Part shown: one piece after another, positions 1 through 63,532 of the stretch
Numbering within the stretch: the first letter of the stretch is position 1
Layout: each line of letters starts with the position of its first letter
NCBI GenBank assembly: GCA_037974665.1
Contig: CM075778.1
Coordinates: forward strand, 7,367,001 to 7,431,000
Length of the DNA: 64,000 nucleotides
From: Ehretia macrophylla
Lineage: Eukaryota; Streptophyta; Magnoliopsida; Boraginales; Ehretiaceae
Reading direction: 5' to 3'
Made by a program: the position numbers and the translations under genes
The notes under the pieces: generated by a model
Seen by the model: the letters and a program-made list of their open reading frames with translations, nothing else
Databases searched by the model: none
Told to the model about the DNA's origin: nothing

Positions 1-3000
1 GACAGCACAACTGGCTTGCATGTTGAGTATGACCAAAGGCCAGATGTTTTCAGGTGTAACACATTACTATATATAAGTCAATTTGGAGTCTTTTTTTCTT
101 TCTCCCTCTGTTACAATTCCATCTATAATTATTTGTCCTCGCTCAATATTATGATTAACATTTGCTGCATCAGGGGAACTGTCCGTTATGCGAGTGTTCA
201 TGCGCACCTGGGCAGGACTGGTAGCCGTAGAGATGATTTAGAGTCTCTTGCTTACACACTCATTTTTCTCCTCCGTGGTCGTCTTCCCTGGCAAGGTTAC
301 CAGGTAGTGTTTCTTTTTCCATGAAGAAACAATTTGTTTTGATCTCTTCTGTCTTATCATTAATGTATTATCATTACGCTATCATGTTTGCAGTACTCTG
401 CATTGCTCTTGACATGATTGTTTTGCTTTTAGGGTGAGAACAAAGGCTTTCTTGTTTGCAAGAAGAAGATGGCAACATCACCAGAATCTCTATGTTGTTT
501 CTGCCCGCAACCTTTCAAATTGTTTGTGGAACATGTTGTGAACTTGAAATTTGATGAGGAACCTAATTATGCCAAATACATCTCCCTTTTTGATGGGATA
601 GTTGGACCAAACCCAGATGTCAGACCAATTAACACTGATGGTGCACAGAAGGTGCATGTGATGTTCTCTGATATTATTGTGCCGCTAAGCATTTCTTTAT
701 TTACGTACATTTTCTGGTTATCAGATGTAGTCTGGTTGTGTCCCTAACTCTCAAGTATGATATATGTAGCTTATCTATCAGGTTGGTCATAAAAGAGGCC
801 GACTGACTTTTGAAGATGAGGAGGATGAACAACCCAAGAAGAAGGTTCGCATGGGTATGCCTGCCACACAGTGGATTAGTGTGTACAATGCTCGTCGACC
901 TATGAAGCAACGGTATACTTCTTCCTCGTCTACTATTACTTGATGCCCCAATCAAGTGAAAATAAACTTGATCGTCTTTATTCATTTTCATTTTGATGTT
1001 ACATCCTCTTGTATTTCCTCTTTACTCTTCTTTACCAGTAGTATATTACTGTGCAGTTTGTTTCTTTCTGTCTTACTTTTTGAAAATATAATGTGTTGAA
1101 GATAAAAAATGATTTCTTCCATGTCACTGAAGGTATCACTATAATGTGGCGGATGCTAGACTTTCTCAGCATATTGACAAAGGCAATGAAGATGGGCTGT
1201 ATATCAGCTGTGTAGCATCTTGTCAGAATCTATGGGCACTAATCATGGATGCAGGCACTGGCTTCAGTTTGCAAGTTTATGAGCTATCACCTTTCTTCCT
1301 TCACAAGGTTCACACTTATGTCAACTATTTAACCCTCGTATACATTTGTTATTTTTATAAAAATCTTTTGAAGTTTTCATATTCACGCCCTTTTCTTGTT
1401 CTAATTTGAGTGAAACTCGTTTAATTTGCGGGTGCTTTAAGGAATGGATAATGGAGCAATGGGAAAAGAATTATTACATAAGTGCAGTGGCTGGATCTAC
1501 TAATGGGAGTTCATTGGTGGTAATGTCAAAAGGTCAGTCTAGTTTGGCTGCTCTGACCTCTTTGCTTTATTTGATTGTTCTTTTGCTTGACGTTAATTGA
1601 TACCCTACAGGCACACAGTATTTACAGCAGTCTTATAAAGTCAGTGATTCTTTTCCCTTCAAGTGGATTAACAAAAAATGGAGGGAGGGTTTCTATGTTA
1701 CGTCAATGGCCACCTCCGGAAGTAGATGGGCAGTTGTTATGTCTCGTGGAGCAGGATTTTCAGACCAGGTTCTCTTGCCATATGAATGATGCTTAATGAA
1801 ACTTAACTGATGATACCATATATTGTAGAGCCTGAGTTACTTAAAAATTCTGGTTCAGGTTGTGGAACTAGATTTTCTCTATCCAAGTGAAGGTATCCAC
1901 CGGCGGTGGGATAGTGGATATCGTATAACTGCTACAGCAGCAACTTGGGACCAGGCTGCTTTAGTCCTGAGTGTGCCTAGAAGAAAGCCTGCAGATGAAA
2001 CACAAGAGACCCTTCGGACTTCGGCCTTTCCTAGTACACATGTGAAGGTAGACTAATCATATCATTGTGTTTATTTAAGGGTAAAAAGCAGCAGTAGTCC
2101 CCATTGTTTACTCAAAAGTCAATTTAATCCCCATTGTTTCAAAATGCTCAAAAAGGTCCCCAATGTTTGTAAACATGCTCATTGTGGTCCCTACCGTTAA
2201 AATTTTGGTTAGTTTTAACAGATGTAAATAGTATTTCAAGGGTAAATTTGAAAAATCACAAAAAACACAAAATTTCACACAAAAATACCAAAAAACACAC
2301 ACTAACACACCTACAAACACACGCACTCACCAAAAAACACACACTAACACACCCACAAACACACACACTCACAAAAACACCAAAAAATACACTAATACAC
2401 ACACATTAACACACCCACAAACACACACTAACATCAAAAAACACACACTAACACCAAAAAATACACACTAATACACACTCATAAACACACACTAACACCA
2501 AAACACACACTAATACACAAGGAGGGGGGTGGGGGGGCGCTGTTCGCGCGCGGGGGGGGGGGGGGGGGGGGCGCTGTCGCGCGCAGGGGGGGGTGGGGGG
2601 GGGCGCTGTCGCGCGCAGGGGGGGGGGTGGGGGGAGGCGCTGTCGCGGCAGGGGGGGTGGGAGGCGCTGTTGCGCGCAGGGGGGGGGGGGTGGGTGGGGC
2701 GCTGTCGCGCGCAGGGGGGGGGGGTGGGGGGGCGCTGTCGCGCCAGGGGGGGGTGGGGGGAGGCACTGTGCCGCAGGGGAGTGGGTGGTGGGTGGTGGTG
2801 GTGCTTGGTGGTGCTTGGTGGTGCTTGGTGGTGGTGGGTTGAGGGTTTGAAAGAGGAAGAAGAAGATAGGGATATTTTGGGTATTTTATTTTTAAGTAAG
2901 GGTAGTTTAGTTATTTTATAAATTTTCTGTTAAAATTTTAACGGTAGGGACCACAATGAGCATGTTTACAAACATTGGGGACCTTTTTGAGCATTTTAAA

Positions 3001-3199
3001 ACAATGGGGATTAAATTGACTTTTGAGTAAACAATGGGGACTACTGCTGCATTTTTCCCTTTATTTAACCACAAAGATATTTACTTTTTCTTCTTTCATG
3101 TAATTCGATGTAGTTTAAAAGTTAACTTTTTCCTTGCAGGAGAAATGGGCGAAAAATCTGTATATTGCATCTGTATGTTACGGGCGTACAGTTTCGTAG
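1..3199 (+). CDS. MUT9-like / casein kinase 1-like protein kinase, 3' part (5' end outside window)
   Basis: Nine exons in a single consistent frame: 1-53, 174-303, 433-651, 782-912, 1133-1307, 1442-1532, 1611-1768, 1859-2047 and 3140-3199 (TAG). All introns are GT-AG; together they give 401 C-terminal residues. The visible part begins in the kinase C-lobe ([32 protein letters not shown], as in CK1-like kinases). It continues through an acidic/basic nuclear-type stretch ([13 protein letters not shown]) into a long C-terminal region of repeated Trp/Gly units ([35 protein letters not shown]). That two-part layout is typical of plant MUT9-like kinases (MLK/PPK), nuclear Ser/Thr kinases linked to histone H3 phosphorylation and light/clock complexes. 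The ATP-binding lobe and start codon are upstream of the window. The last intron (2048-3139) has been enlarged by a Mutator-like element. The assignment to the MLK group is firm; which paralogue is unknown. Confidence 0.9.
2079..3059. mobile_element. Non-autonomous Mutator-like element with AC-rich and G-rich core
   Basis: This 981 bp insertion lies in the last intron of the kinase gene. It is flanked by a perfect 9 bp TSD, TTTATTTAA, at 2070-2078 and 3060-3068. The TIRs are about 128 bp (2079-2206 and 2932-3059) and nearly identical, starting GGGTAAAAAGCAGCAG and GGGAAAAATGCAGCAG. Each TIR contains several short subrepeats with a 'GTCCCCA-TTGTTT' core. The interior has an AC-rich half (about 2279-2520) followed by a G-rich minisatellite (about 2521-2775) in which long G runs alternate with GCGCTGTCGCGC. 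There is no transposase ORF; the proline- and glycine-rich reading frames across the minisatellite are compositional artefacts. A 9 bp TSD with long TIRs is the Mutator signature. Confidence 0.93.
2521..2775 (+). repeat. G-rich minisatellite (potential G-quadruplex array)
   Basis: About seven imperfect units of roughly 30-40 bp, each a run of 7-18 G residues followed by GCGCTGT(T/C)GCGCGCA or a variant. It is preceded by about 240 bp of CACACA/ACACTAAC-type repeats. The G-rich strand is the coding strand of the surrounding kinase gene, so the runs would be present in the pre-mRNA. Confidence 0.9.
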
Positions 3200-3879
3200 A
3201 TCCTGACAATCTGAAAGGTCAGCTGTTCTTATTGATATATCTTGTGGGACGTACAGACCTTGGATTGCTGAAGAGGAATCCAGGCTGGAGAAAATTTTGA
3301 TTGGCACGAGCTTTAGTTAGTCGTAGTCCTGAAGCTAAGTAGCGCTTCGTGTTGTCTGTTGTGTGGATATCTGTCTTTCGCGTCTGTAGTCATTTCTAAG
3401 CCAGGAATATGGGTCTTCACTTATGTCAGATTTGTATAGTTCTCTTACAATAAGTGGTTAGGATCAAGGCGGGGTGGGTATTCATATGTTGAATCCCCTT
3501 GTTTACATATCCTGGCTTGGCATCAGATCAGAATCTGGATTATTTGCATCTAGGTTTTTATCCATTATCTTGCTTTATCTATATGTTTTGGTTTTCCTGA
3601 TGCCAATTATGTTGGTTTTATCTTGATCAAGAACACAAGTTGAGAAAAATCTACCATCCGACACTGTCAGATGATCAGGCTCTCAGTGCCATTGGATGAG
3701 AGACTCTCCCTAGTAGTTGCGCTACTGATGCTGCTACAAACCAACACGACGCTCTTTTCATACCCAAGCAAGCAAACCTTCAACCACCAAACAGCCAAGC
3801 CATTCCAGTGTATCAAACACTGCCTGAACGAATTTGGAGCACGAAACATAATCCCTTTCCTGAGGATATAGTCTCCTTA
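3200..3879. other. 3' flank of kinase gene with an unidentified coding-like fragment
   Basis: 3200 to about 3600 is the probable 3'UTR and terminator region of the kinase gene; I see no strong poly(A) signal. From about 3614 to 3887 one + strand frame reads as plausible protein (including IYHPTLSDDQALSAIG and IPVYQTLPERIW) with one in-frame TGA near 3697. I do not recognise the family. It may be a degraded gene fragment that the adjacent MITE (3880-4194) interrupted, or chance. Confidence 0.4.
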
Positions 3880-9385: not shown

Positions 9386-10446
9386 TTTAGTGTCTTTCTC
9401 TTTCTCTTCACACACACTCACACACACACACAGTGAGACTGAGGTTTTTGAGCTTCTTGCAGTAGTTTTTCCTATTAAAGAAAGGTTCCTAGGGAAGGTG
9501 GTTTTGATTCTGTATGTTGATATGCATGCTATGAGTGGTGGAATTGCTTACTAAGATGTTGCCACGTCAAAAGCTTTCTTGATTGGCCTAATTAAGGAAA
9601 CGATAAATTATGCATATAATTTTTATTATTTATAAATTTCTTTAAGTTAGTCCTTAATATTTTAAAAAATTATATTTATCTTTAATATTTATAAAAGTAA
9701 TTCAAAATAATCTCTATTATTCAACACTAGTCAACTTAATTCATATTATTTTTAAAAAAAATCAATTTAATCCTCCAAATAGAATCATATGTAGGGACTA
9801 AATTAATTTTTTTTAAAATAATAAAGACTAAATTAAATTTTTTTAAAAATAATAATGATCAAATTGATTAATTTTAAATAATAAGAATTATGTTGAATCA
9901 CTTTATAAATATTAGAAACTAATATAAATCTTTTGAAATATTAAAAATGACATTAAAAAAATATATAAACTATAGAAACTAAATGTGAAATTTACCTTTA
10001 CAGAAATCACAATGATAATCTTGATTAGGCCTATTGAAACTTATAAAAAGATGACCTTCAATATAAATGAATAATATACTCAATATTATACAATTGACTC
10101 TACCTTATAAAACTTTGTTTTAATATAGTAATAGGTGTACAACAAACTTATGTGGAACGCAAAAAATAACTAATATACTAATTTTTTTATATAAAAAACA
10201 TGAAACCAATTTTAAATATAGGAAAAAAAAAACTAGGCTATAATCCGCAATAAATCTATTAGTTAGAAGGTCCCAATCATCAACGGTGAATTATCTTCTT
10301 GTAGACCCTCAAGAATAAATTTTTGGTTGTGCAAAGCAAAGAGAATGATGACTTCGGGTTGCACCAAGTCTCAATTGAAGTCGATTGGAATCTTGGGTTA
10401 GTAATTGGTGGTGGAGTACAGAATCTTCATTTTTATTTTAAGTTTA
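9386..10446. other. SHH promoter side plus a degenerate inverted-repeat element
   Basis: Immediately upstream of the minus-strand SHH start is a (CA)n tract near 9408-9433. About 9601-9995 has inverted similarity between its two ends: 'TAATATTT..AGTCCTTAATATTT' motifs on the left against 'GGTAAATTTCACATTTAGTTTCTATA' type sequence on the reverse complement of the right. This suggests a decayed Mutator-like TIR element without a recognisable TSD. Nothing coding is seen. Confidence 0.4.
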
Positions 10447-10803
10447 AGGTAAATAATTTATTTACTCTTGTATTTTTATTATTTATTCTAATTTAATCTT
10501 TATGTTTTACATTATACTTTTTCAGTCTTGTATCTTTACTATTTGTCTCAATTTAATCTTTATCTTTCAAACTATACCCTTTTAATCTTGTATATTTACT
10601 ATTTGTCTCAACTTAATCTTTATCTTTCAAAATATAACTTTTTAGTCACATGCTTATTTTATTAGATTTTTGAATGGAAAAATAGTGGAGGATTAACGCG
10701 GACCACAATTACAAAAATATTAGACTAAAATGATATATTTTGAAAAATAAGAACTAAGTTGGGACAAATGGTAAAGATAAGAAACTAAATAAGTAATTTA
10801 CCC
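10447..10803. mobile_element. Short Mutator-like MITE
   Basis: 357 bp, between TTAAGTTTA (10438-10446) and TTAAATTTA (10804-10812), a 9 bp TSD with one mismatch. The ends are AGGTAAATAATTTATTTAC and, as the reverse complement of the right, GGGTAAATTACTTATTTAG. The left half is a visible tandem array of about 60 bp units (CTTGTATnTTTACTATTTGTCTCAA.. then TTAATCTTTATCTTTCAAA). No ORF. Confidence 0.75.
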
Positions 10804-11064
10804 TTAAATTTATGCTCCAAGTAATCAACGGCTAGACAATTATGATAAAAGGACATAGTTAAAATCACTTATTAGAGAAGAAAAGGGAAATTTGTTATCT
10901 CAAAAAATAGGTATAGCAAAGATAAATTTTAACACTCATTTCTAATTCAACTTTAAAAAAAAAAAGAAGGAAGGTTAGTTAATGATACATACATTTCATT
11001 TCAAAAAAGAAATTACAAAAAAAGCAAATATGTATGCCTATCATATAGATCTTGTAGCACCCCT

Positions 11065-13974
11065 TCATTTTTGCCAAACATACATCCAAAGATTGTAAAC
11101 AAGTGCCAATAATATAACAATCAAGACTTGTTGGACAAGAGAAATGTTGTTCTCTCTCAACGTTCCCTCGCAGGTCTTGATGTCTGCAGGAGCATAGAGC
11201 AACGCCATTGATATGCAGTCCTCATCTGCCCCTTTGAACACTGGCCTCCCTATCACATGCTTGTATTGTCCTGCGCTCCATGCCTGTCAAAGATTGAAAA
11301 AGAAAAAAAGAAAACATTATCATTGTTATTAAAGACGTTATAAACTAAATACATATCTTGTAATATCTTAGGTCACCTGTTAATACATTGAGTCTAATCA
11401 ATTGACTCAAATTGTTTAAACATGTGTTAACAACTGTAGTAATAAAGGAAAATTTGCATAAATGGTCCCTATTATTTTCTTAAATTGATTTTTTTTGGAA
11501 AACAATAGGTATTAAATTAGATAATTTGAACAATATAGACTAAATTGGCTAATATTGAATAATATGGACGAATTTAAAATTTTGAAAAAATAATATGGAT
11601 TATTTGTGCAATTTTACCTAGTAATAAACTCAAATCATTATAAACTGAACACATATCTCATACAGAATGGATATGAGACGGATTGTCACATATCTTATAG
11701 ACAGAACGGGGACATGATGTTACAATCTCCCCCTTAAATACGCTAGGACAAAGTTAATCAAGATGCAACTACTAATTTGTCAACAAATTGAGTCTAATCA
11801 ATGACTCAAAATGTTTAAATCCATAGTGATAACATTAGATAATTTAAGTCATGATAAACTAAATATACATCTTATATAAAAAACTAACGTGAAACAGGAT
11901 GTTACAAAAATTAATCTCCTTCTTGTTAATAAGTTAGTATTATAGTACTACTAATAATAGAATAATATGAGATCTCAGCTAGACTCTTCTTCACTGGAGA
12001 AAAGAAAAGAGAACAGAACTCATCAGTGAAAAAGTACAATATAACTATTTCAACATTGGAGACCCTAACCATCATTAAAGTATCACCTAATCTATTGAGT
12101 AGCATTTCTAACTCCATCAAGTTGTCTACAAAAGCCATAATGATGATACATGCCTCATTTTTCCTTTAAGCATATTATACCTTGGGCTATAAAAGTTTGA
12201 ATAATTAGCCTTTTGAAGCATGCAAGATCTCATTATGGACCAAACTAGTTAAAACAGCAATGCTTCAACCTCGAGGCAAATCTAAGATGTTTTGTCAATG
12301 AAAATTAATAAGTTTTAAATACCAAAACTAGTGGAAGTTAACTAATTTTACAGAATCAACGTAATGTATATTATCTTTAGAAGTCAATAGAGACTACCGT
12401 CTCACGATGTAAATTGTGAATTCTTTGATGCCTCAACTTCTTCAAAATAAAATAAAAAAAAAAAAAAAATCCAATCATGGATACGTTTGTTACCTTTAAT
12501 TGATCTCCAATGGTGACTATGAGAGCATCTTTATCAGATTGGAAAGAAGCCCAACCTTTCTTGGAGTAAACATGGAACTCCTCACTTCCAATGCATATAT
12601 GCATACACAATGCATGAGAGAATTCGGATCCTCTTATCAGCATTCTTATAATGTCATGTCTCAATGAGTTTGCAGCTCCCTGGTCGCCATGGACACTCTG
12701 CGAATGCTTCTTGAGGAGACACAGAGGACCAACATACTTTGGCTGATCCTCTAACATTGCACCATTTTGATCATGAGCTTTTCTTGATGAATTGTGTCGC
12801 AAGAATTTCAGAATTTTTTCAGCCACCATCTCAACGTCGGATGAAAGCTTTTCCAGCTTCTCTCTGCAGTATGAGTGTGTGAGGCATCAAAATTTTTGAG
12901 CAAAAATGAATACGAAATATCAGAATTCATTAAGTATCATCACACAACAAAAATGATGTATATGACCAGGAATTCACGTTAGGTAGGACCATAAATTTTA
13001 TGATGCAGCAGTACACTCGAACACTTGCTCTAGGTCAATCAAATATTAAATAATATTTGTAATGAGAAAGCATAGAATTTAAACTTGAAATCTTTGACTG
13101 CAACAAGTTATATATTACCCGCAACAAGTTATATATTACCCGACCACTCTAACAATCCTTTGGTGGCTCATGGAGCATGTTATGCATATTTTCTCATGTT
13201 TTATTAGTAACTTTTACAACAATGATTCAAGAGTTTACACACTAGGCAGGTTTAATTAGGAAATCTAAATAGCAATACCATTCAAATTAACCATGTAAAT
13301 GTCTTCAATCAAGTTTATCAATCAAAAGAATACTCTTAACTGATCGAGCATTGCTATATATAATTCTTACTATGTAAAAGAGTATGAAAGGATTACGTAA
13401 AATATTATTTTACCGGTGTTAGTAATTACCTGAAATTTGAATATCCGAGTGGCCAAATTCCCTCCATATCCAACACCAATCTTTCATCCCTACACCATAC
13501 AAACTCTTCACTCATTTCTTGGTCATCATCTTCCCCATGGCCCTCCTCAAAACCGTACACCCTGTCCGCCGACCTCGTCACCACCTTCCTCTTCTCTGGC
13601 GGTATCCTAAAAATCCCAGTGCCGGCAGCCAAAACAGATTCGATAAGATCACGTGAAACTCCATGGTTGATCACCTGAAAGCAGCCAATTTGAGCAACCG
13701 ATTCAAGAACCTTCAAGATTGACTCCTTCTCAAGTGAAGCCAACGAATGTAAATCAAGTTTCGGAGGATTTTCGATGGATTTTTGCCGTGGAAAAACCCT
13801 GTCAGGAAGAATCAGGTCCGGGACTTTGAGAGAATTTTCAAGAAACTCAGTTAAAACTTCATCATTTGTGACAGATGATCGTCGGCTAGAGCCCACCGGA
13901 GATGGCGGTGGTGCACGAAAATCGATGATGGTGTTGTCTCGCATTAATGGTTCAGGCGTGATTGCCATCTTCAT
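11065..13974 (-). CDS. 2-oxoglutarate/Fe(II) dioxygenase-like protein, probably catalytically inactive, with hydrophobic C-terminal tail
   Basis: Three minus-strand exons, 13974-13430 (ATG), 12863-12494 and 11283-11065 (TGA), with GT-AG introns and correct phases, encode 377 residues. Residues about 70-140 are a typical DIOX_N region (PPKLDLHSL, IGCFQVINHGVSRDLIESV, FRIPPEKR). The C-terminal part keeps the jelly-roll framework (ALIVTIGDQLKAWSAGQYK, ISMALLYAP). However, the HxD motif is not recognisable, the distal metal His in the usual KSVxHRV context is replaced (YKHVIGRPV), and the Arg of RxS appears as Cys (DCISM). Canonical family members need all of these to bind Fe(II) and 2OG. The last about 20 residues (VLIVILLALVYNLWMYVW) form a potential tail anchor. 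Intron 2 contains a short Mutator-like MITE. The gene model is solid; inactivity is inferred from motif loss and could reflect a divergent clade. Confidence 0.8.
11447..11618. mobile_element. 172 bp Mutator-like MITE in intron 2 of the dioxygenase-like gene
   Basis: A perfect 10 bp TSD, TAGTAATAAA, lies at 11437-11446 and 11619-11628. The ends are GGAAAATTTGCATAAATGGTCC and, as the reverse complement of the right, GGTAAAATTGCACAAATAATCC. The interior repeats 'GTCCCTATTATTTT'-like motifs in inverted orientation. No coding capacity. Confidence 0.85.
13100..13141. repeat. 21 bp tandem duplication in dioxygenase-like intron 1
   Basis: Two exact adjacent copies of a 21 bp unit beginning GCAACAAGTTATATATTA (13100-13120 and 13121-13141). 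Confidence 0.85.
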
Positions 13975-31658: not shown

Positions 31659-32405
31659 TTGTTTAAAGGGTTATACCCCGTAGGTCGCTTATTTTTATTG
31701 GTTTTATTTATTTGGTTATTTATTTTCAAAACGATCATATGGTAGTATTTTATGTTTTATTTTTGTGCCACCGTTAGTGCTTCTGTCAAGAAACTAACAA
31801 TTTTAGCATGTGAGAATCACGTGATTAGTAATTTTGCAAATATAGAAGGGCAAATTTATCAGCACAAAAAATTTACTCTTTACACTCACTCACCCTTCGA
31901 TTTCATCTCCATTTTTCAACCAATTATAATCCCTAACCCCCAAATCCCCAATTCACAAATCTGTAACCATGAACCCTGCCCCTAAATCCTCAATTCCAAA
32001 TCCCTAATCCAAATATGCAACAATCCACACCATTTAAGCTCAAAGTCGAGCCAACCTTAGCTCAAAACCACTCCATTTGCATCATTTTAGCTCAAAGCTG
32101 TGCCAATCCTACTTCTATTTCGCCATTTGAGCTCAAGGTTTAATACATTTCTCGCGATCTCGCCATTTTAGCTGACTTTTTTTTTCATTTTTTTTTTCAG
32201 TTTATTATATTGGCTCTTGTAGAAAACCGCAACAAGATTGGCGATTTTAGCTCAAAGCCAACGATTTGCAATAGAAGCATTGTGTTATTGTGGAATTAGA
32301 GATTTGGGTAAGGATTAGTGTTAGTGATTTAAGGGAATTGAGAATTTTGGGTAAGGGTTAGACTTAGTAATTTGAGGGAATTAGGGATTTGGGTTATGGG
32401 TGTAT

Positions 32406-32927
32406 GTTGGTCAGGGAAGCCAATGATCACCCTATGGATTCATTATCGAGGAGAGCAGTATTGTGCTTGACAGCTTAGCCTGCCGATGCATGGTGTATGC
32501 ACTGCGAAGCCCCTCAAGCCCACTCGCAGTACATATAAACGCGGGGTTCTGCGTTGCCATAATAAGAAAATAAAGTTGCGCCTCGGCTAACAACTTAACC
32601 TTTTAGCTTAGTAGTAAGCGCTTGATCTTGAAAATTGGTATCAAAGCGAGGTTGCTGGTTCGAATCCCTTGGGTGTCGCTGGGGGGGAGATTGTTGACCA
32701 AGGAAGCCAGCGATCACCCTATGAATTCGCTATCACGGGGAGCGGTATCGGTGCTTGACATCCCAGCCTGTAGATGGATAGTGTATGCACTGTGAAGCCC
32801 CTCAGACACACCTACAACACGTATAAACGCGGGGTTCTGCGCTACCATAATAAGGAAATAAAGTTGCGTCTCTACTAACAGCTTAAACTTTTAGCCTAGT
32901 GGTAAGCGTTTGATCCTGAAAACTAGG
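32406..32927 (+). repeat. Tandem 287 bp tRNA-related repeat, second copy truncated
   Basis: Copy 1 is 32406-32692. Copy 2 is 32693-32927 and ends where the palindrome begins. Each starts GTTG(G/A)(T/C)CA.GGAAGCC and contains 'CGCGGGGTTCTGCG' and an A-box-like TTAGCCTAGTGGTAAGCG. Copy 1 also carries a B box GGTTCGAATCCC about 50 bp downstream. A tRNA-derived SINE dimer or a small retroelement is possible; I see no clean TSD. Confidence 0.65.
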
Positions 32928-35596
32928 ATTCTCTCAATCTTAATCTAGAGCCTCATAAGTGTATATAATACAAAGAGTTGATATTACAATGAAGCACAAT
33001 ATAACTCCTCAACAAGTTGGATAATGCAATTTAAATCTCTTTTGAATGCTCATAGGATTTGCACATTGTAAGCTCAAGCTTGATGCATTTTGATGTTTTG
33101 GATCAACAATATAAGTTTAGCATCAATGGAAAATGTGTAGAAGAGGTCTATTATGAAATGGGTGTGATTTGGTATAAATAGGCAAACCTTCAACATTAAA
33201 AAAATGGCAGTTTTTTCAAATCAAAGCGATCCGGACGAGGCATCCGGTTGAGGGGCTCATCTGGATGTCTTATCCGGATGCATTCTGCCATTGATCTGGA
33301 TGAGGCAGCCTCCTTATGATGAACAGTGCCAAATTTTTAGTTTTTGTAAAATTTCACCCGAAATCCAATTTTCGAAAGTAAGACATTTAAACATCCCAAG
33401 TACACTTCTTCAAAAGATTTTTCAACCTTTTAAACATCCCAAAATATTTTCTAAACCTTTGTGGAAAGCTTAAAACCGATTTTTACAATCCAAGAGTTTC
33501 AAATCAATTTTCACCCGAAAATAAATCTTTTGAAGATAAAAACATTTGAACCTTTCAAGAACAATTCTTCAAAAGATATTTTGACCTCAAAGAACTCTTG
33601 AGAAAAGATTTAAATAATATTTTAAGAGATTACCAAGAGCTTAAGCCACAAAAGTGCAAATCCAAGACAAACGACAATATTCAAGCCGCTACCCCTTATG
33701 TCGTTATTTCTCCACCTTATGTCACCACTTCACCTTTATACCTTCAAGTCTTGATATTCAAGATCTTCATTTCTTTAATTCTTCAAGACTTCATTGGTGT
33801 ATCTTGTGGTGAGCTTGATCATTCCATTCTTCAATGACCGATAAGATTCGTTTTTTCTCAATCTTGCGTTTTTTCTTTTTGAGCCTCGCTTTTCTCTTAT
33901 TGCAAGATTCTCTTCTACCAAGCATTCAAGCATATTTGGCTCATGTGAATACACGGTGTTTGATAAAAGGCCAATGTGAGCATAACAATTGAATTCTATA
34001 ATTTTTAAAGTAGTGATATGTCTTTGTAAGCCTAATTCGCCCTCCTCCCTCCCCCCACTCTTAGGTTCATTTGGGACAACAAGTGGTATTAAAGCTGAGG
34101 ACTCTATGTATAGTATAACAACTAGTAGAGAAAAGGTCATAGCAAATACTACTATCTGCTCTTTGAAATGCTATATCAATTGATCATTACAAATATTATA
34201 CTTCATTGATTTTGATGATACTATGCTTAAAAAGATAAAAAAAGAATATGTGTGAATTTTTAAATCATTTCAAGCATAATTCACACTTTTTTTTTTAATC
34301 ATTTCAAGCATAGTATCATCAAAATCAATGAAGTTTAATATTTGTAATGATCAATTGATATAGCATTTCAAAGAGTAGATAATAATATTTGCCATGACCT
34401 TTTCTCTACTAGTTGTTGCACTATACATAGAGTCTTCGGCTCTGATACCACTTGTTGTCCCAAATGAGCCTAAGAAAGGGGTGGATTAGGCTTACTTAGC
34501 CAAATTACTACTTTAAAAATTATAGAATTCAATTGCTATGCTCACATTGGCCTTTTATCAAACACCCTGTATTCACATGAGCCAAATATGCTTGAATGCT
34601 TGGTGGAAGAGAAACTTGCAAAAAGAGAAAAGTGAGACTCAAAAAGAAGAAATGCAAGATCGAGAAGAAACAAATCTTATCGGCCATTGAAGAATGGAAT
34701 GATCAAACTCACCACAAGATACACTAATGAAGTATTGAATAATTAAAGAAATGAAGATCTTGAAGATCAAGACTTGAAGGCATAAAGATGAAGTGGTAAC
34801 GTAAGGCGGAGAAGTGGCGACATAAGGGGTAGCGGCTTGAATATTGTTGTTTGCCTTGGATTTGCACTTGTATGGCTTAAGCTCTTGGTAATATCTTAAA
34901 ATATTCTTTAAATCTTTTCTCAAGAGCTCTTTGAGGTCAAAATATCTTTTGAAGAACTGTTCTTGAAAGGTTCAAATGTTTTTATCTTCAAAAGATTGAT
35001 TTTTGGGTGGAAATTAGTTTAAAACTCTTGGATTATAAAAATCGATTTTAATTTTTCCCCAAGAGTTTAGAAAATATTTTGGGATGTTTAAAAGATTGAA
35101 AAATATTTTGAAGAAGTGTACTTGGGGTGTCTAAATGTCTTACCTTCGAAAAATTAGATTCGGGTGAAATTTTGCAAAAATTAAAAATTTGGCACTGTTC
35201 ATCAGGCGGAGGCTGCCTTATCCGAATCAATGGCAGAATGCATGCGGATGAGACATCCAGATGATCCCCTCGACCGGATGCCTTGTCCGGATCGCGCTAA
35301 TTTGAAAAAACTAGTCATTTTTTTAACGTTGGAGGTTTACCTATTTATACCAAATCACACCCATTTCATAACAGACCTCTTCCATACATTTTCCATTGAT
35401 GCTAAGCTTATATTGTTAATCCAAAACATCAAAATGCGTCAAGCTTGAGCTTACATTGTGCAAATCCTATGAGCATTCAAAAAAGCTTTAAATTGTATTA
35501 TCCAACTCATTGAGGAGTTATGTTGTGCTTCATTGTAATAACAATTTTTTTGTATTATATACACTCATGGGGCTCTAGATTAGGATTGAGAGAATA
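32928..35596. repeat. ~2.7 kb near-palindrome made of inverted LTR-like arms
   Basis: The left arm (32928 to about 34262) and right arm (about 34266-35596) are reverse complements with scattered substitutions. For example, ATTCTCTCAATCTTAATCTAG at the left outer edge matches the complement of the right outer edge. On the minus strand of the right arm, TGGTATCAGAGCC (34437-34449) matches the consensus primer-binding site for initiator tRNA-Met. The left arm has the diverged equivalent TGGTATTAAAGCTG (34083-34096). Each arm therefore resembles LTR plus primer-binding site plus a short internal stretch, joined head to head. No pol-like ORF is present. Confidence 0.7.
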
Positions 35597-36833
35597 CTTG
35601 TAAAGAGTTGAGTGTGAGAAAATCCTTTGTGCACTAAAGGGGTAGAGGCTGTAGGTTTGAGGTCTTACTTATATTTGAAAAGACCTTGGTTAACTCTTGT
35701 AGATTTAAGAGTGGGATTGTACGTTGGTTTGTGCTTCACCAACATTTGAAGAAGCATGCAACCTCTAGTGGAGTTTGTGAAAATCTTAAGGGGAGGAAGA
35801 CCTTAGGTAGTAGACTATGTCTTCGTGAGTTTGAACCACTTAAAAATACCGTGTTTGATTTCTCTCACTCTACTCTATTTACTTTACTTCTTGTGCATTA
35901 TAACTTGCTAGATTATATTTTGTTTATATGTGAATTTATTGAGTATAATATATCTTTACAATATAATCCGCACAAGCCAAAACACTCAAATACAATTTGG
36001 CTTCACAAGATATACATTTAATGCACAAAGCCAACGAGTGTGTGATTAGACATATAAACATATCAACACAAACACACTCGATAAATCAAATTGATTATAC
36101 TTGCATTCTTCATTAGATCAATACAATTGTTTTTACTTTGCAAGTCATTCATTCAATTTCAATATTTGGCTCAACTTAATATGCACATTTTAATCTCATG
36201 AGCCTTAAGTGTGACTTTAATCGAAGAAATATATAGATGCAATCACACTTAATAAATCCATTATCATCTTCTTCCTTTATACTTGCATCATCACTTAATC
36301 AATGCCATTATCTTCTCCATGCAAGTTATCCTAACAATCAATATTTGACTCAAATAAATGGTATACAATTTATCCATATGAGTCACAAGTGTGAATTTAA
36401 CAATATAAATTTATTGGATCAACCACACTTGACATAACCAAATAACCATATTTGTTATCATCAAAATCATGCATTAAACCTAAGGCCAACAATGTAAGAA
36501 TAGAATCGTGACTTTTGCTAAAGAATACAATAACTTATTTGTGATGACAAATTTGCCCTTTAAAATACCAATCACATGATTCTCACATGCTAATATAGTT
36601 AGTTTAAACGTCTAATGTATGTGATTTTTATACATTGATAATTTTTCCCTCCAAAAAGGCTATCACGTGTATTGCACATGCCAAAAACGTTAGAAATATG
36701 ACGGAAGGATCAACGCTAGCACAAAAGATAAAGATAAGGGATCAACCTATAATCATTTTAAAAATAAGGGACCAAATAGACAAAACTAGAAAATATAAGA
36801 TACCTATGGGGTGAGTATAAACCCTTGTTTAAA

Positions 36834-43472: not shown

Positions 43473-44529
43473 GTCAAATTGAACAAATAGTCTCTATTAT
43501 TTACAAATTTTAGATAAATAGTCTTTATTATTTCAAAAGTTTAATAGTTAGTTCTTATTATTTACTAAAGTCACACTTTTAATTTCTATTATTTCAAAAG
43601 TCACACAATTAATCTCTATTATTTATAAAAGTCTCACCATTAGTGCTTACTGTCAATTGACTATCAAAAAATTAACAGAAAAAAATAATTGTTTGTGTTA
43701 AATGACCTTATTACTCTTGATTTAATTAGAAAATTACATAAGTACCCTTATTGTTTAATTAGTTTTTTTTTTCTACTCTTCTTCTCCGTAACCTTCTACT
43801 ACCAAACACACGCCACCACCACCTAACCACCGCCACCCCTATTGTTTAATTCTTTTTTTTTCTGCTCTTCTTCTCCGTCAACTTTCCACCCCCTAACACA
43901 TCCCACCATTACCTAACCACCGCCACCCCCTACTCACTTCTCTACCACCAACATCAATCACACATTGCACACACACAAACACACGCGCACACACGCACAC
44001 ATGTACACACACACAAACACACAAACATACTGCGCATATACACGACGGGTGGGGGTGGGGGTGGGGATGGGTTGGCGGTGACGGGTGGGAATGGGAATGG
44101 GAATAGGGGTGGGAATCACGGGTGGGGTTGGGAATGAGGGTAGGGATGGGAATGGGGATGGGGGTAATAGGGGTTGGGGTGAGGGGTGCCTAGTGGGCTA
44201 GGGGTAGGTGGCGCGGGTGGGGCTGGGGGGTGGGGGAAGAGATGGAAAAAAAATTAAAAAATAATATATTATCCAAAAAAAAATATTTTTTTTTTATAAA
44301 AAAGACTATTATACTCTTGAAATGTATTAAATTTTTAACGGTCAGTTAACATTAAGGACTATATGAAACACTTTTTAAACAATAGGGACTAATGGTAAGA
44401 CTTTTGAAAATAATGATGATCAATGGTGGGACTTTTACAAACAATGATGACTAACCACGTAACTTCTAAAATAATAGGACTATTTGTTTAAAACTTATAA
44501 ATAATAGGGACTATTTGACCAATTTGCCC
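43473..44529. mobile_element. Non-autonomous Mutator-like element with AC-rich and G-rich core, upstream of KUA1
   Basis: 1057 bp between perfect 10 bp TSDs, CATATTTGTT, at 43463-43472 and 44530-44539. Left end is GTCAAATTGAACAAATAGTC; right end as reverse complement is GGGCAAATTGGTCAAATAGTC. Each TIR is a tandem array of five or six ~31 bp units around 'AGTCTCTATTATTTACAAAA'. The interior has an ACACAC-rich half (about 43960-44040) and a GGGTGGG/GGGAATGG-rich half (about 44041-44235). No ORF. It lies about 420 bp upstream of the KUA1 start. Confidence 0.9.
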
Positions 44530-45629
44530 CATATTTGTTATTCAATCACTTTAAAAATCTAATACTAGATTCACATTCATACTATAATATTGCAAAGGAT
44601 ATTTTTAATTATTTGGGAAGGAATGGAAAATCATAAACTTTCATCACGTTTTAAATTTAGAAATTGTCATTCTGTAATTTTAGAACTTCAAATTCGTAAA
44701 AGAGACTATCATAAGTTAATTCACATTCATAATATTATATTGGGTAAATGACTTATTAGGTCCCTTATCTTTTTCGCTATTATCTAGTTAGTCCTTCATC
44801 TTTCAAACGACCATATGTCAGTCCTTCATCTTTCCAACTTATGTCACCGTTAGTCCTTCCGTCAAAAAACTAACGGTTTAGTCACATGCACGACACATGA
44901 CCATTTTTTGCAAGGGCATTATCCTCTTTTGAGGGCAAATTTGTCTTTTTGCAAGCTATTGACTACATAATACTAAAATCCCCAATTCTATTATCAAACC
45001 TGATAACCTTAACATTGCTCCAAAAACTTCAACTTATCGCTGCAACTCTTCTTCTCACTGCAAAATCGATAAAGAGGCTGCAACTCTATATGCCGGCGAA
45101 ATCGTCTTCTTGCTGCATATCTTCTTCTCAGTGCAAAATCGCGATGGTAACAAGTAAGTGGCTGCAACTTTACTTCGTTAACATTGGTTGCAAAAACTTC
45201 AACTTTTCTTCAATTTTAAGGCACTAGCAAATGAAATTAATGAAAAATGCATAGACTTAGGGTTTCAATTTGGCTGCAAATGAATTAAAAATTGGGTTTC
45301 AATGACCTAGGGTTTCGGCAATCTAATTGGCAGTGTATAATAGCTTAGGTTTTCGTCAGTTTCAATCATATCAATAAGGTAACTTCTATGAATTAAAAGT
45401 GCTATATTACTTTATATGTAAGCATGTAGTGTTTCGGTAGTGAGTGTTATTTGACTAAAAAAAACATTTGTCCACCACTAGTCCAACAGAGAGTTGTGTA
45501 TTTTTCATTTTAATGAACAACATGAGAACAAATGCATCTCTTTATCAAAGAGATATACCCATTTAATGTGGTTGTTAATTATTTGTTTGAAATATTTTTT
45601 GGGTTTCGAATTTTTATTGTTGTGTATAT

Positions 45630-47404
45630 ATGTTGTATGTTTTTGTAGATATTTTTTGGTTGAAGGTTCATTTTGGCGGTGATTTTAAGGATGTTAGTGG
45701 AACTAAGTTGTATGTCGGAGGTAACATTAAATTTGTTGATTCACGTAACTACGATAATATGTCATTGATTGTATTGGATAGTATTGCTAAGGAATTGGGA
45801 TATGAGAGTCATTCAGGATTTTGTTATAGGAAACCTGGTATGAATTTAGACAATGGCTTGCAGTTGTTGATGACAGAGAAAGATGTGTTGGATATGAAGG
45901 CACTAGCAACTTCAATTGATGAAAAATGCATAGACTTGTTTGTAATTGGGGATCATAATGTATTATAGTTGACATTACCCAGTCAAGTTGAGTCATATGT
46001 TGGTGGAAATGTTAATGCTGGAGATGTTGTTGGTTGTTTGAAGGAACCTAATGAACCATACCTTAGTTTTGTACCCTTGGGTTGTCCGGATAACCCTACA
46101 ACAAGTACACAAAGTACACGAAGTAAACGGAGCAAATCAAAAGTTAAGAGAATTGGACCAATGAGGGATAAAGGCAAAAGAAAGGTGAGTGCGGTTGATG
46201 AGATTGTTAACAGTGATGGACATGACAGTGATGCATCTGACAATGATAGTAGTGGGCCTAGTTTTCATGATAGTGATAATGACTTAAATGACGATGACGA
46301 TGACAAGTTGTTTGATGAAAATATAGATCCTGAAGTTGAATGGGCTGGTGTTTTCAAACTGTATGAAAAACTGGAAGATTCAGTTCCAGTTGAACATTCT
46401 GGTAATATACCACTGGAGGAAGGTTCTTCTGAGGACTTAAGTGATGATAGCTTACATAGTTGTCATTCAGATGGTGATGTTGATGCATATGGGAAAAGGT
46501 GTGAGAGGTTTGAAAGATTTAGAAGACAAGTGGATATGGAAGATCCTCAATTTGTATTAGGTATGATATTCACAAATGTCGACGAGCTTCGACTTGCTAT
46601 CAAGGCACATAGAGTGAAACATCGCAAGAGTGTGAAGTTCGTGAAAAATGACAAGACTAGAGTTCGGGCTAAGTGTGATGGAAGGTCATGCGAGTGGTTC
46701 ATAAATGCAATATATGTGAAAGAGAGTGACACCTTTCAAATAAGAAGCTTAAACAATGTTCACAATTGTGGTACTGATTTCGATCACAAGCATTTGACTT
46801 ATAAAGAGTTGGGTGCGCGATACTTGGATCATTTAAGAATGACTACGCATTGGGATGCAAGTGATTTTCAAACTAAGGTGCACAATGATTTCCAAGTAAA
46901 TGTGTCAAGGCGGACTGTTTATAGGACATTTGATTATGTTATAATCAAGTTCAATCAACTGACATTAGTGGTGATATTAACTCTACTAATACTAGCAGTG
47001 TGCAGGTGAATGTCACTAGTAGAGAGGTTCGAGTGGTAGCAAAATCCAGCCAAGTCAATGTGACATCAATATGCAGCGATATGGGGATCACAGTAGGGAC
47101 AAACAACAAGGTCAATGTCACTACTAATAATACTGATGTGCATATAGATGCTGATAGTAGTCAAGTAAATGTGGATGCATTGAATACAGATAGTAGAAGT
47201 GTTGTGACTAATCCTCACATGCCAAGAAAAGTAAGGTGTAGCGTATGCTTGAAACAAGGCCATGATGTAAGAAAGTGTCCTTCAAAGGTTGCAGATAGTG
47301 TAAGGAAGAGGAAAGCAAGTACCTTTGGACTTCCCGAGTCCACCTCTACACATTCAAAGTCCAAAGAAAATGTATTAACACTATCCTTCAAATTCTACTT
47401 TTGA
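45630..47404 (+). pseudogene. MuDR-type transposase relic lacking the catalytic core
   Basis: The frame from about 45630 runs to a TAG at 45966-45968 and resumes in the same frame from 45969 to 47009. It encodes an N-terminal PB1-like region, an acidic Asp/Ser-rich linker (HDSDNDLNDDDDDK) and the plant MuDR DNA-binding region (GMIFTNVDELRLAIKAH, CDGRSCEWFINA, VSRRTVYR). The DDE transposase and SWIM domains expected next are absent. After about 46935 the reading leaves the family and shifts to a frame at 47000-47404 that ends in a CCHC knuckle (CSVCLKQGHDVRKC), as at MURA C-termini. The product cannot be an active transposase. The start lies upstream and may be spliced, so 5' bounds are approximate. 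Confidence 0.8.
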
Positions 47405-47525
47405 CACTTACATTGTTTTTTTGTAGGTTATTGAAGCACCCAAAAAACCACCATTTATACTAGCGGGAACGGGTTTGCATGTCAAGGCACCATTACCAAA
47501 TACTTGTGAGAAATCGGTGAAGATT

Positions 47526-47709
47526 GGATCATCTATGATCAAGCCAAGTGCAAGTACATGGAAAAAGGAATACATGTGTGAGCCTCAAGTCCTTGCTTGC
47601 TGAAAGTTCTAGTACATGGATCATCTATGATCAAGCCAAGTGCAAGTACATGGAAAAGGGAATACATGTGTGAGCCTCAAGTCCTTGCTTGCTGAAAGTT
47701 CTAGTGGTA
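47526..47709 (+). repeat. 92 bp tandem duplication inside the MULE
   Basis: Two near-identical copies (first from 47526, second from 47618) of a unit beginning GGATCATCTATGATCAAGCC and ending near GAAAGTTCTAGT. Confidence 0.88.
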
Positions 47710-48514
47710 CTAACAAACCTGCTACAACTTCAACTCAGACCAAAAAAACAAAAAACCGGCAAAGGACCAAGTTCGGACTCCATTGACAAGAAGAATGGAT
47801 GAATATAAGTTATGTTTAGGTGTATTGACAAACAATTTATGTGTGTCTTAATTTACTTTGTGTTGTAGTACTTTGGCTATGTGAATTGGCTTGTGTTGTA
47901 CTACTTTGTGTTCTAGTACTTTGTCTATGTGATGGCTTTTATTTTGGTTGCCGAACAATTTACATTTTGAGTTTGTGATAAAAATGACTATGTACTTTAT
48001 ATTAATCTAATCCTTTTGATTTGGATTATGATTCTTGCTTTTGGTATATAAGTTTGTGTTTGCCATAACAGGTTGTTTAACTATTGAATAAGCATAGGAC
48101 CATTTTTGCAGATTTTTAAATGTGAAGTGGAATCTTTAACAGGTTGTTTAACCATTGAATGTGAACATGACTATTTTTAAGACAAAACATTATAGATTGG
48201 AGGATCAAGCCAAGCATAGATGTAATACTCTTTAGCATACATATTGAATACACATTACATAATAAAGCACCAAAATGCATGTTATAATTCACAAAATTTG
48301 ATGATTTTTTCGACTCAACAACTGCATTGGTGCACACAGATTAAGCTACTATTATACAACAACACATCTAAACCTACTAAATAAACCTACTCTTCATCAA
48401 CATTAATCAACATCTACACCTACTAAATAACATCTTTATCAGCATTGCAATGAAACAAACGCACAAGATCAGCCACCAGAAGCACTTCTTCAATCTCTTT
48501 CTCTCAACTTCATG

Positions 48515-48742
48515 CTATTCATGCAATTCTTGCAATTCGGCATCTTTCCTATTCATCGCCCTTAGCAATCCAGGAATAATTTGTTTACTCCTTTCACAAA
48601 TTGGAGGATCAACCCAATCAAAATAACCACAACCTTTACCATCAAGGTAACCTTCGCAACGTACAAACCTTCTCTTAGGATTGAAGTCAGTCCAAGAGGT
48701 GATGACATTGCCTTGTTTTCCGCAATAACACTGATATGCCAT
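48515..48742 (-). CDS. GRF-type zinc-finger ORF carried by the MULE
   Basis: A single open frame of 75 residues from ATG 48742 to a stop at 48515. It carries a GRF zinc-finger pattern: CYCGKQGNVITSW, NPKRRFVRCEG, then GKGCGYFDWVDPP, followed by a short helical tail (RKDAELQELHE). GRF fingers bind single-stranded nucleic acid, and small GRF proteins are often found near plant MULEs. It is intact, on the opposite strand to the transposase relic. A separate role in transposition is inferred only. Sequence upstream of the ATG stays open to 48862, so a longer start is not excluded. Confidence 0.75.
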   Translation of the reverse strand: MAYQCYCGKQGNVITSWTDFNPKRRFVRCEGYLDGKGCGYFDWVDPPICERSKQIIPGLLRAMNRKDAELQELHE

Positions 48743-49565
48743 GGTGACTAGCTTGGAGACACGACCAATGTGTGTGAAACTAACATATAGATCAGTATGG
48801 TATATACATTGAAATGAATAAATAATCAACTTAATATCAAAATAACTTAGTGTGGTCCACATTATGCTTGTAGAGAATACTATTCATGCGGCAAGTTGTA
48901 TTTTGCATATGGCAATAGTTGTACAACACCTTGGTGACGACGGGAATGGCGAATCAACGGGAATGGCGAATCAACGGGAATGCAACAACAACAAACGACC
49001 AAATGTGGAGAAGAAGGAGTTGGGGATTTAGGGATTTGGGGGATTTGGGTTTTAGGGATTTAGAAATTTGGTTTTAGGGATTTGGATTTCAAATCGGGTT
49101 CATGCTAATATAGAAGGGAAATATGCTGATTACCCCCAAAAGACGATAATGCCTTTGCAAAAATTGGTCATGTGTCGTGTATGTAACTAAACCGTTAGTT
49201 TTTTTACGGAAGGACTGACGGTGACACAAGTTGGAAAGATAAAGGACTGACATATGGTTGTTTGAAAGATGAAGGACTAACTAGACAATAGCGAAAAAGA
49301 TAAGGAACTTAATAGGTCATTTACCCTATTATATTTGAATATTATGTTGTGAGCAATGTGAACAAGAAAGGATGCAACCATGCCCCGTGTGAAAGTTTGA
49401 ACTTTTTTTAAAAAAAAATATTCATGTCTTTTTGGGTTTTTTTTTCTGTCATTATGTATTTTAAATAAAAAAAATTAGGTAGTCCTCATTAATATATATA
49501 TATATCTTCAAATAATTATAAAATTATATATAATAACAAAAAGAATCTTAAATTTGTCTCTAAAT

Positions 49566-60874: not shown

Positions 60875-61077
60875 AATAATTTCATTTTCTCCATTTGCGG
60901 GCATTGGAATTGTCTTAGCTCTTGAACTTTTAACGGTTAATTTGCAATGCATGATAGCACCCGAACTTGTTGCATCATTACGTTCATAGCATTATAATTC
61001 AGAATATCAGGGACGTCATCATGATGTAATATTTATTAGAAGAAGCATATATGTATAGTTTCACCTTTTCTCCATTA
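60758..61077. other. Intergenic with (AT)n microsatellite
   Basis: 60835-60872 is an uninterrupted AT dinucleotide run. No gene is seen. Confidence 0.8.
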
Positions 61078-61086
61078 TTGGATCAA

Positions 61087-61937
61087 GGGTGAGGTACACA
61101 AGACCCTCTTATACTTTTATTAAAGTGCACATGACCCCCTTGTGCTTTTAAAAGTACACAGGACCCTCTTGTGCTTTTTTAAACGTAGCATGGTTACCCC
61201 TTCTCCACTTTTCCGTCAACTTTGTTAACAAAAAATAGTAAAAGACATAAATACCTCTATTTTTTTCTTTTTTCTCTTTTTTCCTTTACCCTTTTACTTA
61301 TTTATCTATCTATCTATTTATATATGTATATATGTATGTATTTGTATATACACACACATAGCTACTCTTTCCTTCAAAGAGGCCCTGGGTACGTTCCTAT
61401 GCTGTTCATTGAAGTTCATGTATAGGTAATAGGTCCTGTGTATAACTTGTGGAACCTTTCTGATTTCGTTTTGTTCTTTAATATAAAATTCTACCTTGCG
61501 GCATTACATGTCGTACCAGCCCATTGATTTACGCGAGTGTGCTATGGCATTGCTTAGTCTTTCTTGCGATTGCCATAATTATATGATCAGTGATTAAAAA
61601 AATAAAAAATAAAAAAAAGAACGCAGGAGATCGATATCCAAGTCAATTTGAAGATATTTATTTGTTTGGGGAGGGAGGGGGTGTAATTGTTTTTTGTGAA
61701 AAAGGTATTTTAGTAAATGAATAAATATATTTTATTATAAAAACTGATAAAAGAATAATTCCAGATGCAAAATGGGCGTGTGTCATACATTTACAGTTAA
61801 AACTAACGGTTTTCTTGACTGAATAACTAACCATGATGTGTTTTGAAAATTACAAGGGGGTTCTGTGCACTTTTAAAAGCACAGGGGGGGCCTTTGCACC
61901 TTAACAAAAACATAATGGGTCTTTGTGCACTTTAACC
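61087..61937. mobile_element. Non-autonomous Mutator-like element
   Basis: 851 bp between perfect 9 bp TSDs, TTGGATCAA (61078-61086 and 61938-61946). The ends are GGGTGAGGTACACAAGACCC and, as the reverse complement of the right, GGTTAAAGTGCACAAAGACCC. The TIRs carry three ~33 bp subrepeats (AGTGCACATGACCCCCTTGTGCTTTTAAA). The interior has TATC/TATG simple repeats; no transposase is seen. Confidence 0.9.
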
Positions 61938-61946
61938 TTGGATCAA

Positions 61947-63058: not shown

Positions 63059-63067
63059 AAAAATCAA

Positions 63068-63532
63068 GGGTGAAGTGCATCAGACCCCCTTGTATTTTAG
63101 CGAAAGTGCACAACACCCCCCTATAGTTTAAAAACCCTCTGAGTTAGTCTTTGTAGTTTTTCAAAAGTGCACAACACCCCCCTACTGTTAAAAAATTCAT
63201 TAAATTTAACGAAGAGTGTACTTCACACGCGTTAAGTGAGATTTTTTTTAAAATTTTTAACAAATTTATTCATTAAATAATTATATGAATTGACCAAATT
63301 ACATTTTTTTTTGACCTAAACAAATGAGGAAATGGCAAAAGAGAGAAATGAAAAAAAAATGAGGGTATTTATGTCTTTTTTACAAAATCCGTTAAATATG
63401 ACGGATTTTATAACTGTAGGGGGGTGTTGTGTACTTTTAAAAAACATAGGGACTAGTACATGGAGTTTTTGAACTATAAGGGGGTGTTGTGTACTTTCGC
63501 TAAAGTATAAGGAGGTCTGGTACACTTCACCC
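63068..63532. mobile_element. Non-autonomous Mutator-like element, related to the 61087 copy
   Basis: 465 bp. The 9 bp TSD is AAAAATCAA (63059-63067) / AAAAATTAA (63533-63541), one mismatch. The ends are GGGTGAAGTGCATCAGACC and, as the reverse complement of the right, GGGTGAAGTGTACCAGACC. Subrepeats are of the type AAAGTGCACAACACCCCCCTA. No coding capacity. Confidence 0.88.

Follow-up and report, generated by a model that had tools for sequence, protein, structure and literature searches.

Nine Mutator-like elements (MULEs; E1 to E9, Table 1) in a 64,000-nucleotide stretch of Ehretia macrophylla DNA (contig CM075778.1, positions 7,367,001 to 7,431,000, here called the window) have ends built of tandem modules with a pitch of about 30 bp, a single orientation, a conserved core and two alternating classes (A and B), which keep a common register from one element to another and are restricted to element ends within the window. 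On balance, it is somewhat probable that these arrays are the working part of plant MULE terminal inverted repeats (TIRs), descended from one ancestral end, and that they act as a phased multi-site platform for an oligomeric transposase. The analysis covers the 18 ends (L, left; R, right) of these nine elements, each a single copy.

Anatomy of the arrays

Proceeding inward, an end consists of a G-rich tip (GGGTAAA-like), about 17 bp, a series of oriented modules with a core near AGTCCCTAATATTT, and usually a CCGTYA-like block. Unsupervised motif discovery yielded a weak motif, and a seeded core was used instead: a 17-column motif converged on AgTCccTaaTaTTTatA and gave 72 sites in the 18 ends, three of which were dropped as chain-breaking (gaps of 36 bp in E3R, 24 bp in E4L and 51 bp in E6L), leaving 69 modules. 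The seed motif and the inner limits of the arms were set by hand, and the tips assigned by script in E2, E3, E4 and E9 lie 1-2 bp from those that best fit the target duplications. All 51 gaps between chained modules measure 28-32 bp (31 bp in 26, 29 bp in 13, 30 bp in ten, and 28 bp and 32 bp in one each). The distance from tip to first module is 16-17 bp at 16 of the 18 ends with duplication-set tips (E3 has 15 and 20 bp) and 15-18 bp with script tips. Chains comprise two to six modules per end, with only one module in E8L, an arrangement of terminal motif plus variable-number tandem repeats as in foldback-type composite TIRs.

A previous interpretation of the window from its letters only (the sequence-only reading) had proposed tandem units of 25-40 bp with CAAAA tails; the units and the tails exist, but the pitch is narrower and the tails belong mainly to even-numbered modules. 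A TT-AAA tail follows the core in 23 of 29 even modules and 7 of 40 odd modules (0/18 for module 1, 14/17 for module 2). Gap length alternates as well, odd-numbered gaps averaging 30.8 bp and even-numbered gaps 29.5 bp, with the same direction in eight of the nine elements and a difference as large in 73 of 20,000 sign flips. E2 has a 60 bp higher-order repeat (best lag 60, score 168 versus 24.9 in shuffles; Tandem Repeats Finder period 60). Module polarity is uniform, with 31 forward matches and one reverse match to motifs learned without the group being tested. E6 and E7 retain little of the shared core motif, and the left array of E6 has a core of another type (ACCCYCTT-like).

The CCGT(T/C)A blocks that had been placed near several ends correspond to a C[CT]GT[CTA]A block that is found 103-188 bp inward of the tip at every end of E1 and E3-E7 (12/12, strict CCGTYA at ten of them) and often opposite an inverted TAACRG, but this closes only 12 of the 18 ends, being absent from those of E2, E8 and E9 (0/6). 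Of 31 CCGTYA sites in the window, counted in both orientations, 13 are within 190 bp of element ends, which make up 5.1% of the window (binomial 1.4e-9).

Periodicity

The periodic design that had been suspected in the TIRs is more regular than claimed, according to the lag analysis as well as the gaps. At 16 of 18 ends, self-matching is strongest at a lag of 28-31 or 59-62 bp (the exceptions are E3L, 53, and E8L, 22), and the summed repeat score surpasses at least 290 of 300 dinucleotide shuffles at 14 ends (the misses are E2R, E3R, E8L and E9R). The pooled lag statistic of the nine elements is 2.07, the maximum being 0.43 in 500 sets of real non-element segments of similar length; lags of 29-31 and 59-61 bp stand out against 300 shuffles, and in the power spectrum, maxima relative to 100 control sets lie at periods of 30 bp (z 7.7) and 10.0 bp (z 14.9). 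None of 1000 control sets reached the observed value, either when each relatedness group was represented by a single arm or when E6 and E7 were taken by themselves.

Probable common descent and constraint

BLAST links the ends of E3 with E5, E2 with E5 and E9, E4 and E8 with E9, and E6 with E7, and also links E1 with E4 through interior low-complexity DNA. When the ends of different elements are aligned, the mean z is 4.0 at register 0, 1.9 and 1.6 at shifts of 30 bp and 60 bp, and -0.07 off phase; register 0 is the best in 22 of 36 element pairs, and the best register is in phase in all 36. Register 0 remains ahead after the tips and the inner block have been trimmed (2.5 versus 1.1 and 1.5; 27 of the 36 pairs). 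A single ancestral multi-module end behind all of the arrays is therefore favoured over convergence or gene conversion. The sequence-only reading had remarked that the design recurs in families that are otherwise unlike; the recurrence is real, but the ends are linked by BLAST and alike in register, so that shared descent explains it.

Within elements, left-right differences are spread evenly over core (68/398) and linker (91/462; p 0.33, E8 left out), and they mostly postdate insertion. Between relatedness groups (17 multi-module ends, E8L excluded; 40 shuffles with sites picked anew), core mismatch is 0.464 versus 0.618 (sd 0.011) in shuffles, and linker mismatch is 0.671 versus 0.709, near the shuffle level. 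Because the core is kept between groups while left-right decay is even, we take this as a sign that the core may have mattered while the elements were mobile.

Specificity of the array motif

A scan of both strands of the window for chains of modules found 17 arrays of at least three units above the cut-off, all 17 at element ends (scores 23.4 to 76.1) and none outside the elements, with only E8L missing, and six shuffled windows scored 17.2 or less; the motif was trained on those same ends, so finding the ends again is circular, and the information lies solely in the lack of arrays elsewhere. When groups were held out from training, chains above the best background chain were found at both ends of E1, at five of six ends of E2/E3/E5 (two barely), and at five of six ends of E4/E8/E9; these groups were chosen by intuition and then by BLAST, and since E2 also matches E9, the second and third are not fully independent. 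E6 and E7 share the geometry and the closing block with the other elements, and scarcely the core motif.

A two-module pattern had no matches in viral contigs and six in bacterial and archaeal genomes, all of which were then scored as arrays. Stretch L004, a 27 bp bacterial minisatellite, scored above every element end (79.2, ten units), and stretches L002 (three units) and L006 held chains scoring 32.9 and 25.6. These three are read as chance catches among 257 billion bases, and the array score alone is thus unspecific beyond this window. The segments L002:3850-3970 and L004:86-323 are unrelated bacterial tandem repeats containing a GTCCYTNATNTTT-like word.

A possible transposase platform and its alternatives

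The fixed pitch and polarity, the conserved core among variable linkers and the confinement to element ends indirectly support a multi-site binding array. Most likely, each module would bind one transposase protomer through an N-terminal MuDR-type DNA-binding domain, and the 30 bp pitch (about three helical turns), with its 10.0 bp harmonic, would align the protomers along a single face of the double helix. The oligomer would grip each end, then pair the two ends, and then cut beside the G-rich tip, with the CCGTYA block marking the inner edge of the array and perhaps serving a promoter in the terminal repeat. Binding, oligomerization, end pairing and the promoter role are what we infer here from the arrangement of the modules. 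The module core has TC after A or G in most columns, often as GTC, the complement of GAC (ACC in E6 and E7). The WRKY-GCM1 zinc fingers are relatives of the MuDR-type domain. They have been linked to MULEs, and the WRKY site is TTGAC(C/T), according to the sections cited of PMC4387944; a kinship between the GTC of the core and the GAC of the WRKY site is possible, but this is only a hint.

A more elaborate version, put forward tentatively and less likely than not, is that the arrays are an ancient dimeric ruler of 60 bp (A, 31 bp; B, 29-30 bp) at both ends, which would reflect how an oligomeric transposase is built and on which protomers would alternate between A and B along one helix face; the array would grow in AB steps and be closed by the inner CCGTYA palindrome, and this could be a common assembly code for several plant MULE lineages, its geometry kept despite drift of the letters (E6/E7).

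Several observations weigh against these functional readings. The A/B parity of tails and gaps was spotted by eye before it was tested, in modules that are not independent; the gap parity of E7 is opposite, as is the tail parity of E8, the other eight elements agreeing in direction for the tail. A 60 bp shift aligns better than a 30 bp shift in only 16 of 36 element pairs, so the A/B classes are invisible in this cruder shifted-alignment test, and alternation is unsupported as a sequence signal between elements, although gap lengths and the tail motif do support it. Unequal unit lengths were counted in 5 of 22 left-right unit pairs, where sequence mismatch is 18%, and in 144 of 299 unit pairs from different elements, where it is 33%, a result that does not support the proposal that spacing is more constrained than sequence. 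Module number is variable and unequal between ends (six and three in E2; one and three to four in E8), which excludes a strict requirement for it; likewise, the mobility of natural derivatives of the mosquito element Muta1 that differ in repeat number (see below) indicates that the number is not critical, matching E2 and E8. E3 and E5 show the 10 bp signal only weakly. The core motif was learned from the tested ends themselves; trained without E6 and E7, it finds none of their four ends, and E3L and E8L are also below background. An unsupervised leave-out test was non-significant for E5, E6 and E7 and marginally so for E3 and E9. No intact transposase was found in the window.

The multi-site platform has its nearest competitor in a neutral history, in which one slippage event duplicated the ancestral terminal repeat internally, the families simply inherited the result, further slippage added AB pairs, and the repeats have no function. 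This would account for the 60 bp steps of E2, the variable module number and the alignment of elements in register, as descent predicts, and it agrees with the lack of support for over-constraint on spacing; however, it does not account for a core that is kept between groups while linkers approach the shuffle level despite even left-right decay, nor for polarity, pitch and tip distance that are kept where core similarity is small (E6/E7), and we consider it rather unlikely.

Still less probable is a regulatory or anti-silencing platform, on which the modules would bind a host factor or a VANC-like protein encoded by the element and CCGTYA would be a MYB or cell-cycle promoter site. CCGTTR does resemble what we take to be a MYB site. 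VANC proteins bind short tandem motifs in the same orientation (in the sections cited of PMC5735166), and in the MuDR terminal repeat there are enhancer motifs of the cell-cycle type as well as promoters (as cited in PMC3310237). Against this, the window has 6 matches to the published VANC21 motif and 4 to that of VANC6, none of them in the arms, VANDAL elements lack long inverted repeats, and the modules lie inside an inverted repeat at both ends, even in elements in which no gene was found.

The sequence-only reading had offered gene conversion between the ends as a way for the design to spread. Such conversion, or concerted evolution, is very improbable both from unit to unit and from one end to the other: E1 has ends that are 98% alike, and a single copy leaves conversion between its ends conceivable, but left and right arrays match best in the same register, above every shift of one or two modules, in all eight elements tested (E8 being too short), a comparison without signal of unit-to-unit conversion, the elements are mutually in register, and position-specific module classes persist.

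Relation to known systems

MULEs capture host genes and rank with the most active transposons of plants. Repeat arrays in MULE ends are known, and the 30 bp alternating form in plant MULEs appears to be a variant of them. The suggestion that the shared feature was undescribed holds in part: a search of the open-licence literature, excluding subscription papers and repeat databases, turned up no 30 bp alternating array common to plant MULE families, but tandem-repeat MULE ends have been published (PMC5225508, PMC3169594), and the alternating array may be known informally to annotators. The comparisons that follow rest on the sections cited of each source.

The closest published structures are those of Aedes aegypti, where ten of 12 long-TIR MULE families have tandem-repeat ends (PMC5225508). 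Muta1 and Muta5, like the elements of the window, are MULEs with 8-9 bp target duplications and composite TIRs (145-151 bp) of a terminal motif and tandem repeats; active Muta1 has nine 12 bp repeats per end with 3-4 bp spacers, a pitch of 15-16 bp, and its transposase moved five natural derivatives differing in TIR length or repeat number in yeast (PMC5225508). In contrast with the window, the Aedes aegypti repeats are 9-15 bp rather than about 30 bp, alternation is undescribed in the sections cited, and the binding domain is FLYWCH-type in 13 of 14 families rather than MuDR-type as in E5 (PMC5225508). The Tm1 Mutator/Foldback elements of root-knot nematodes also have 9 bp duplications and TIRs consisting mostly of variable-number tandem repeats, but their repeats are 13-15 bp and their terminal motifs asymmetric (PMC3169594). 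The short 9-15 bp repeats of such foldback-type TIRs (Muta1, Tm1) are not those of the window, where gaps are 28-32 bp.

Among plant elements, the tandem long-TIR MULEs of Ferguson and Jiang share with the window a duplicated end sequence, for which those authors propose improved recognition by transposase, and they note short repetitive motifs in many TIRs (PMC3310237). Their unit, however, is a whole TIR of at least 100 bp (61 tomato elements, 10 of 59 TIR families), and no family-wide 30 bp array appears in the sections cited (PMC3310237); the window has no second TIR copy of at least 100 bp, its unit being about 30 bp with a higher order of 60 bp. MuTAnT of Medicago and FARE of Arabidopsis, cited with it, have 9 bp duplications, long modular foldback TIRs and sizes of a few hundred bp like those of E2, E8 and E9; MuTAnT differs from the window elements in targeting TA microsatellites (PMC4486113). 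The MuDR/Mu elements of maize resemble those of the window in their long TIRs with a transposase site and promoter, 9 bp duplications and MuDR-type binding domain (PMC3310237), but their ends have one conserved motif of about 32 bp bound by MURA rather than a multi-module array (cited in PMC3310237). VANDAL elements belong to the same superfamily and have arrays of tandem motifs in one orientation that are bound by an element-coded protein; unlike the arrays of the window, these are located in noncoding regions and introns, and the TIRs are degenerate (PMC5735166, PMC10398659). By the marks of VANDAL, namely no long TIRs and arrays of VANC motifs, the window elements are different, with long TIRs and arms devoid of VANC21 and VANC6 motifs.

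The reason for the large variation in TIR length has been called unclear (PMC6446971, section cited). If an array of transposase sites at fixed pitch sets TIR length, the question of long TIRs can be put to a direct test. The same geometry could also help to find old or non-autonomous MULEs whose sequence has drifted: it recovered 17 of the 18 ends in the window and no chain elsewhere there, with a motif trained on these very ends.

The elements and their contents

The window is plant-like DNA with a Copia-type retrotransposon, a dioxygenase gene fragment and a cluster of MULEs. The assignment to the MULE superfamily is based on target duplications, TIRs and the binding domain. Eight elements have target duplications of 9-10 bp (six exact, two with one mismatch), within the 8-11 bp of the superfamily, and their best-fitting starts agree to the base with those given by the sequence-only reading; E9, which was not in its list, has a two-mismatch candidate. 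TIR left-right identity over the first 125 bp is 0.72-0.98 in all eight elements measured (E8 is too short).

Table 1. Positions of the elements and of their module arrays in the window.
Feature	Position	Strand	Observations
E1, non-autonomous MULE, 981 bp	2079..3059	.	exact 9 bp duplication TTTATTTAA; ends 98% alike
E1 left array, 4 modules	2096..2202	+	gaps 30, 29, 31; CCGTTA in fourth module
E1 right array, 4 modules	2936..3042	-	gaps 30, 29, 31
E9, foldback-type hairpin-like MULE relic, older copy	~9601..9997	.	best duplication TTAAGGAAA/TTACAGAAA, 2 mismatches; ends uncertain
E9 left array, 5 modules	9618..9754	+	core-motif chain
E9 right array, 6 modules	9813..9980	-	gaps 31, 29, 31, 29, 31
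E2, small MULE	10447..10803	.	9 bp duplication TTAAGTTTA/TTAAATTTA, 1 mismatch; CCGTYA-like block not found at ends
E2 left array, 6 modules, 60 bp higher-order repeat	10464..10631	+	gaps 31, 29, 31, 29, 31
E2 right array, 3 modules in examined arm, fourth from chain scan	10677..10786	-	gaps 31, 29
E8, MULE, 172 bp	11447..11618	.	exact 10 bp duplication TAGTAATAAA; modules: left 1, right 3-4
E8 right array, 3-4 modules	11497..11601	-	core-motif chain
E3, MULE, 5.2 kb	31668..36824	.	exact 9 bp duplication TTGTTTAAA; 2.7 kb hairpin inside
E3 left array, 3 modules	31683..31760	+	gaps 31, 30; then CCGTTA, CTGTCA
E3 right array, 3 modules	36727..36804	-	gaps 31, 30; then CCGTCA
E4, MULE	43473..44529	.	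exact 10 bp duplication CATATTTGTT
E4 left array, 5 modules	43489..43627	+	gaps 31, 30, 31, 30; then CTGTCA
E4 right array, 6 modules	44344..44512	-	gaps 31, 29, 31, 31, 30; then CCGTTA
E5, MULE, 4.6 kb	44742..49326	.	exact 9 bp duplication TATTATATT
E5 left array, 3 modules	44759..44836	+	gaps 31, 30; then CCGTTA, CCGTCA, inverted TAACGG
E5 right array, 3 modules	49232..49309	-	gaps 31, 30
E6, MULE	61087..61937	.	exact 9 bp duplication TTGGATCAA
E6 left array, 3 modules	61103..61179	+	gaps 31, 29
E6 right array, 3 modules	61845..61921	-	gaps 31, 29
E7, MULE	63068..63532	.	9 bp duplication AAAAATCAA/AAAAATTAA, 1 mismatch
E7 left array, 4 modules	63084..63192	+	gaps 31, 31, 30
E7 right array, 4 modules	63409..63516	-	gaps 31, 31, 29

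E5 encodes a MuDR-type DNA-binding domain (DBD_Tnp_Mut, PF03108, E 2.3e-14, residues 194-258) in a forward frame at 45969..47009 that has an in-frame stop codon upstream. E5 has 22 frames of 60 aa or longer, and a scan of 20 of them detected no DDE catalytic domain; E5 reads as a defective copy, so this result concerns autonomy. Six frames of E3 yielded no transposase domain, the elements scanned being E3 and E5. The binding domain of E5 had a single, weak and irrelevant match among solved structures (titin, E 0.18), and no relatives of the E5 protein were confirmed in viral contigs. A reverse-strand frame of E5 (48518-48883) resembles a GRF-type zinc ribbon (21.9 bits, below the Pfam cut-off of 25.9) and faces the MuDR-like frame, an arrangement that recalls the two convergent genes of MuDR.

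The elements form three clusters, E9/E2/E8 (9601-11618), E4/E5 (43473-49326, the two separated by 212 bp) and E6/E7 (61087-63532), with E1 and E3 apart. The Copia-type frames (Pol_BBD, rve and RVT_2) are split over separate open frames at 55647-59213. In the interiors of E1 (2251-2837) and E4 (43744-44240), repeats rich in A and C occupy the left side and G-rich ones the right; parts of the two interiors are similar by BLAST, and that of E1 includes a 34 bp G-rich minisatellite (2524-2792). E3 contains a near-perfect hairpin of 2.7 kb (32922-35601), with arms of about 1.3 kb that are about 90% complementary and 29 bases between the innermost arms; by analogy with the maize Mu killer locus, which yields double-stranded RNA, it could be a source of such RNA. 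A 92 bp tandem duplication in E5 (47525-47705, 98% matches) is apparently recent.

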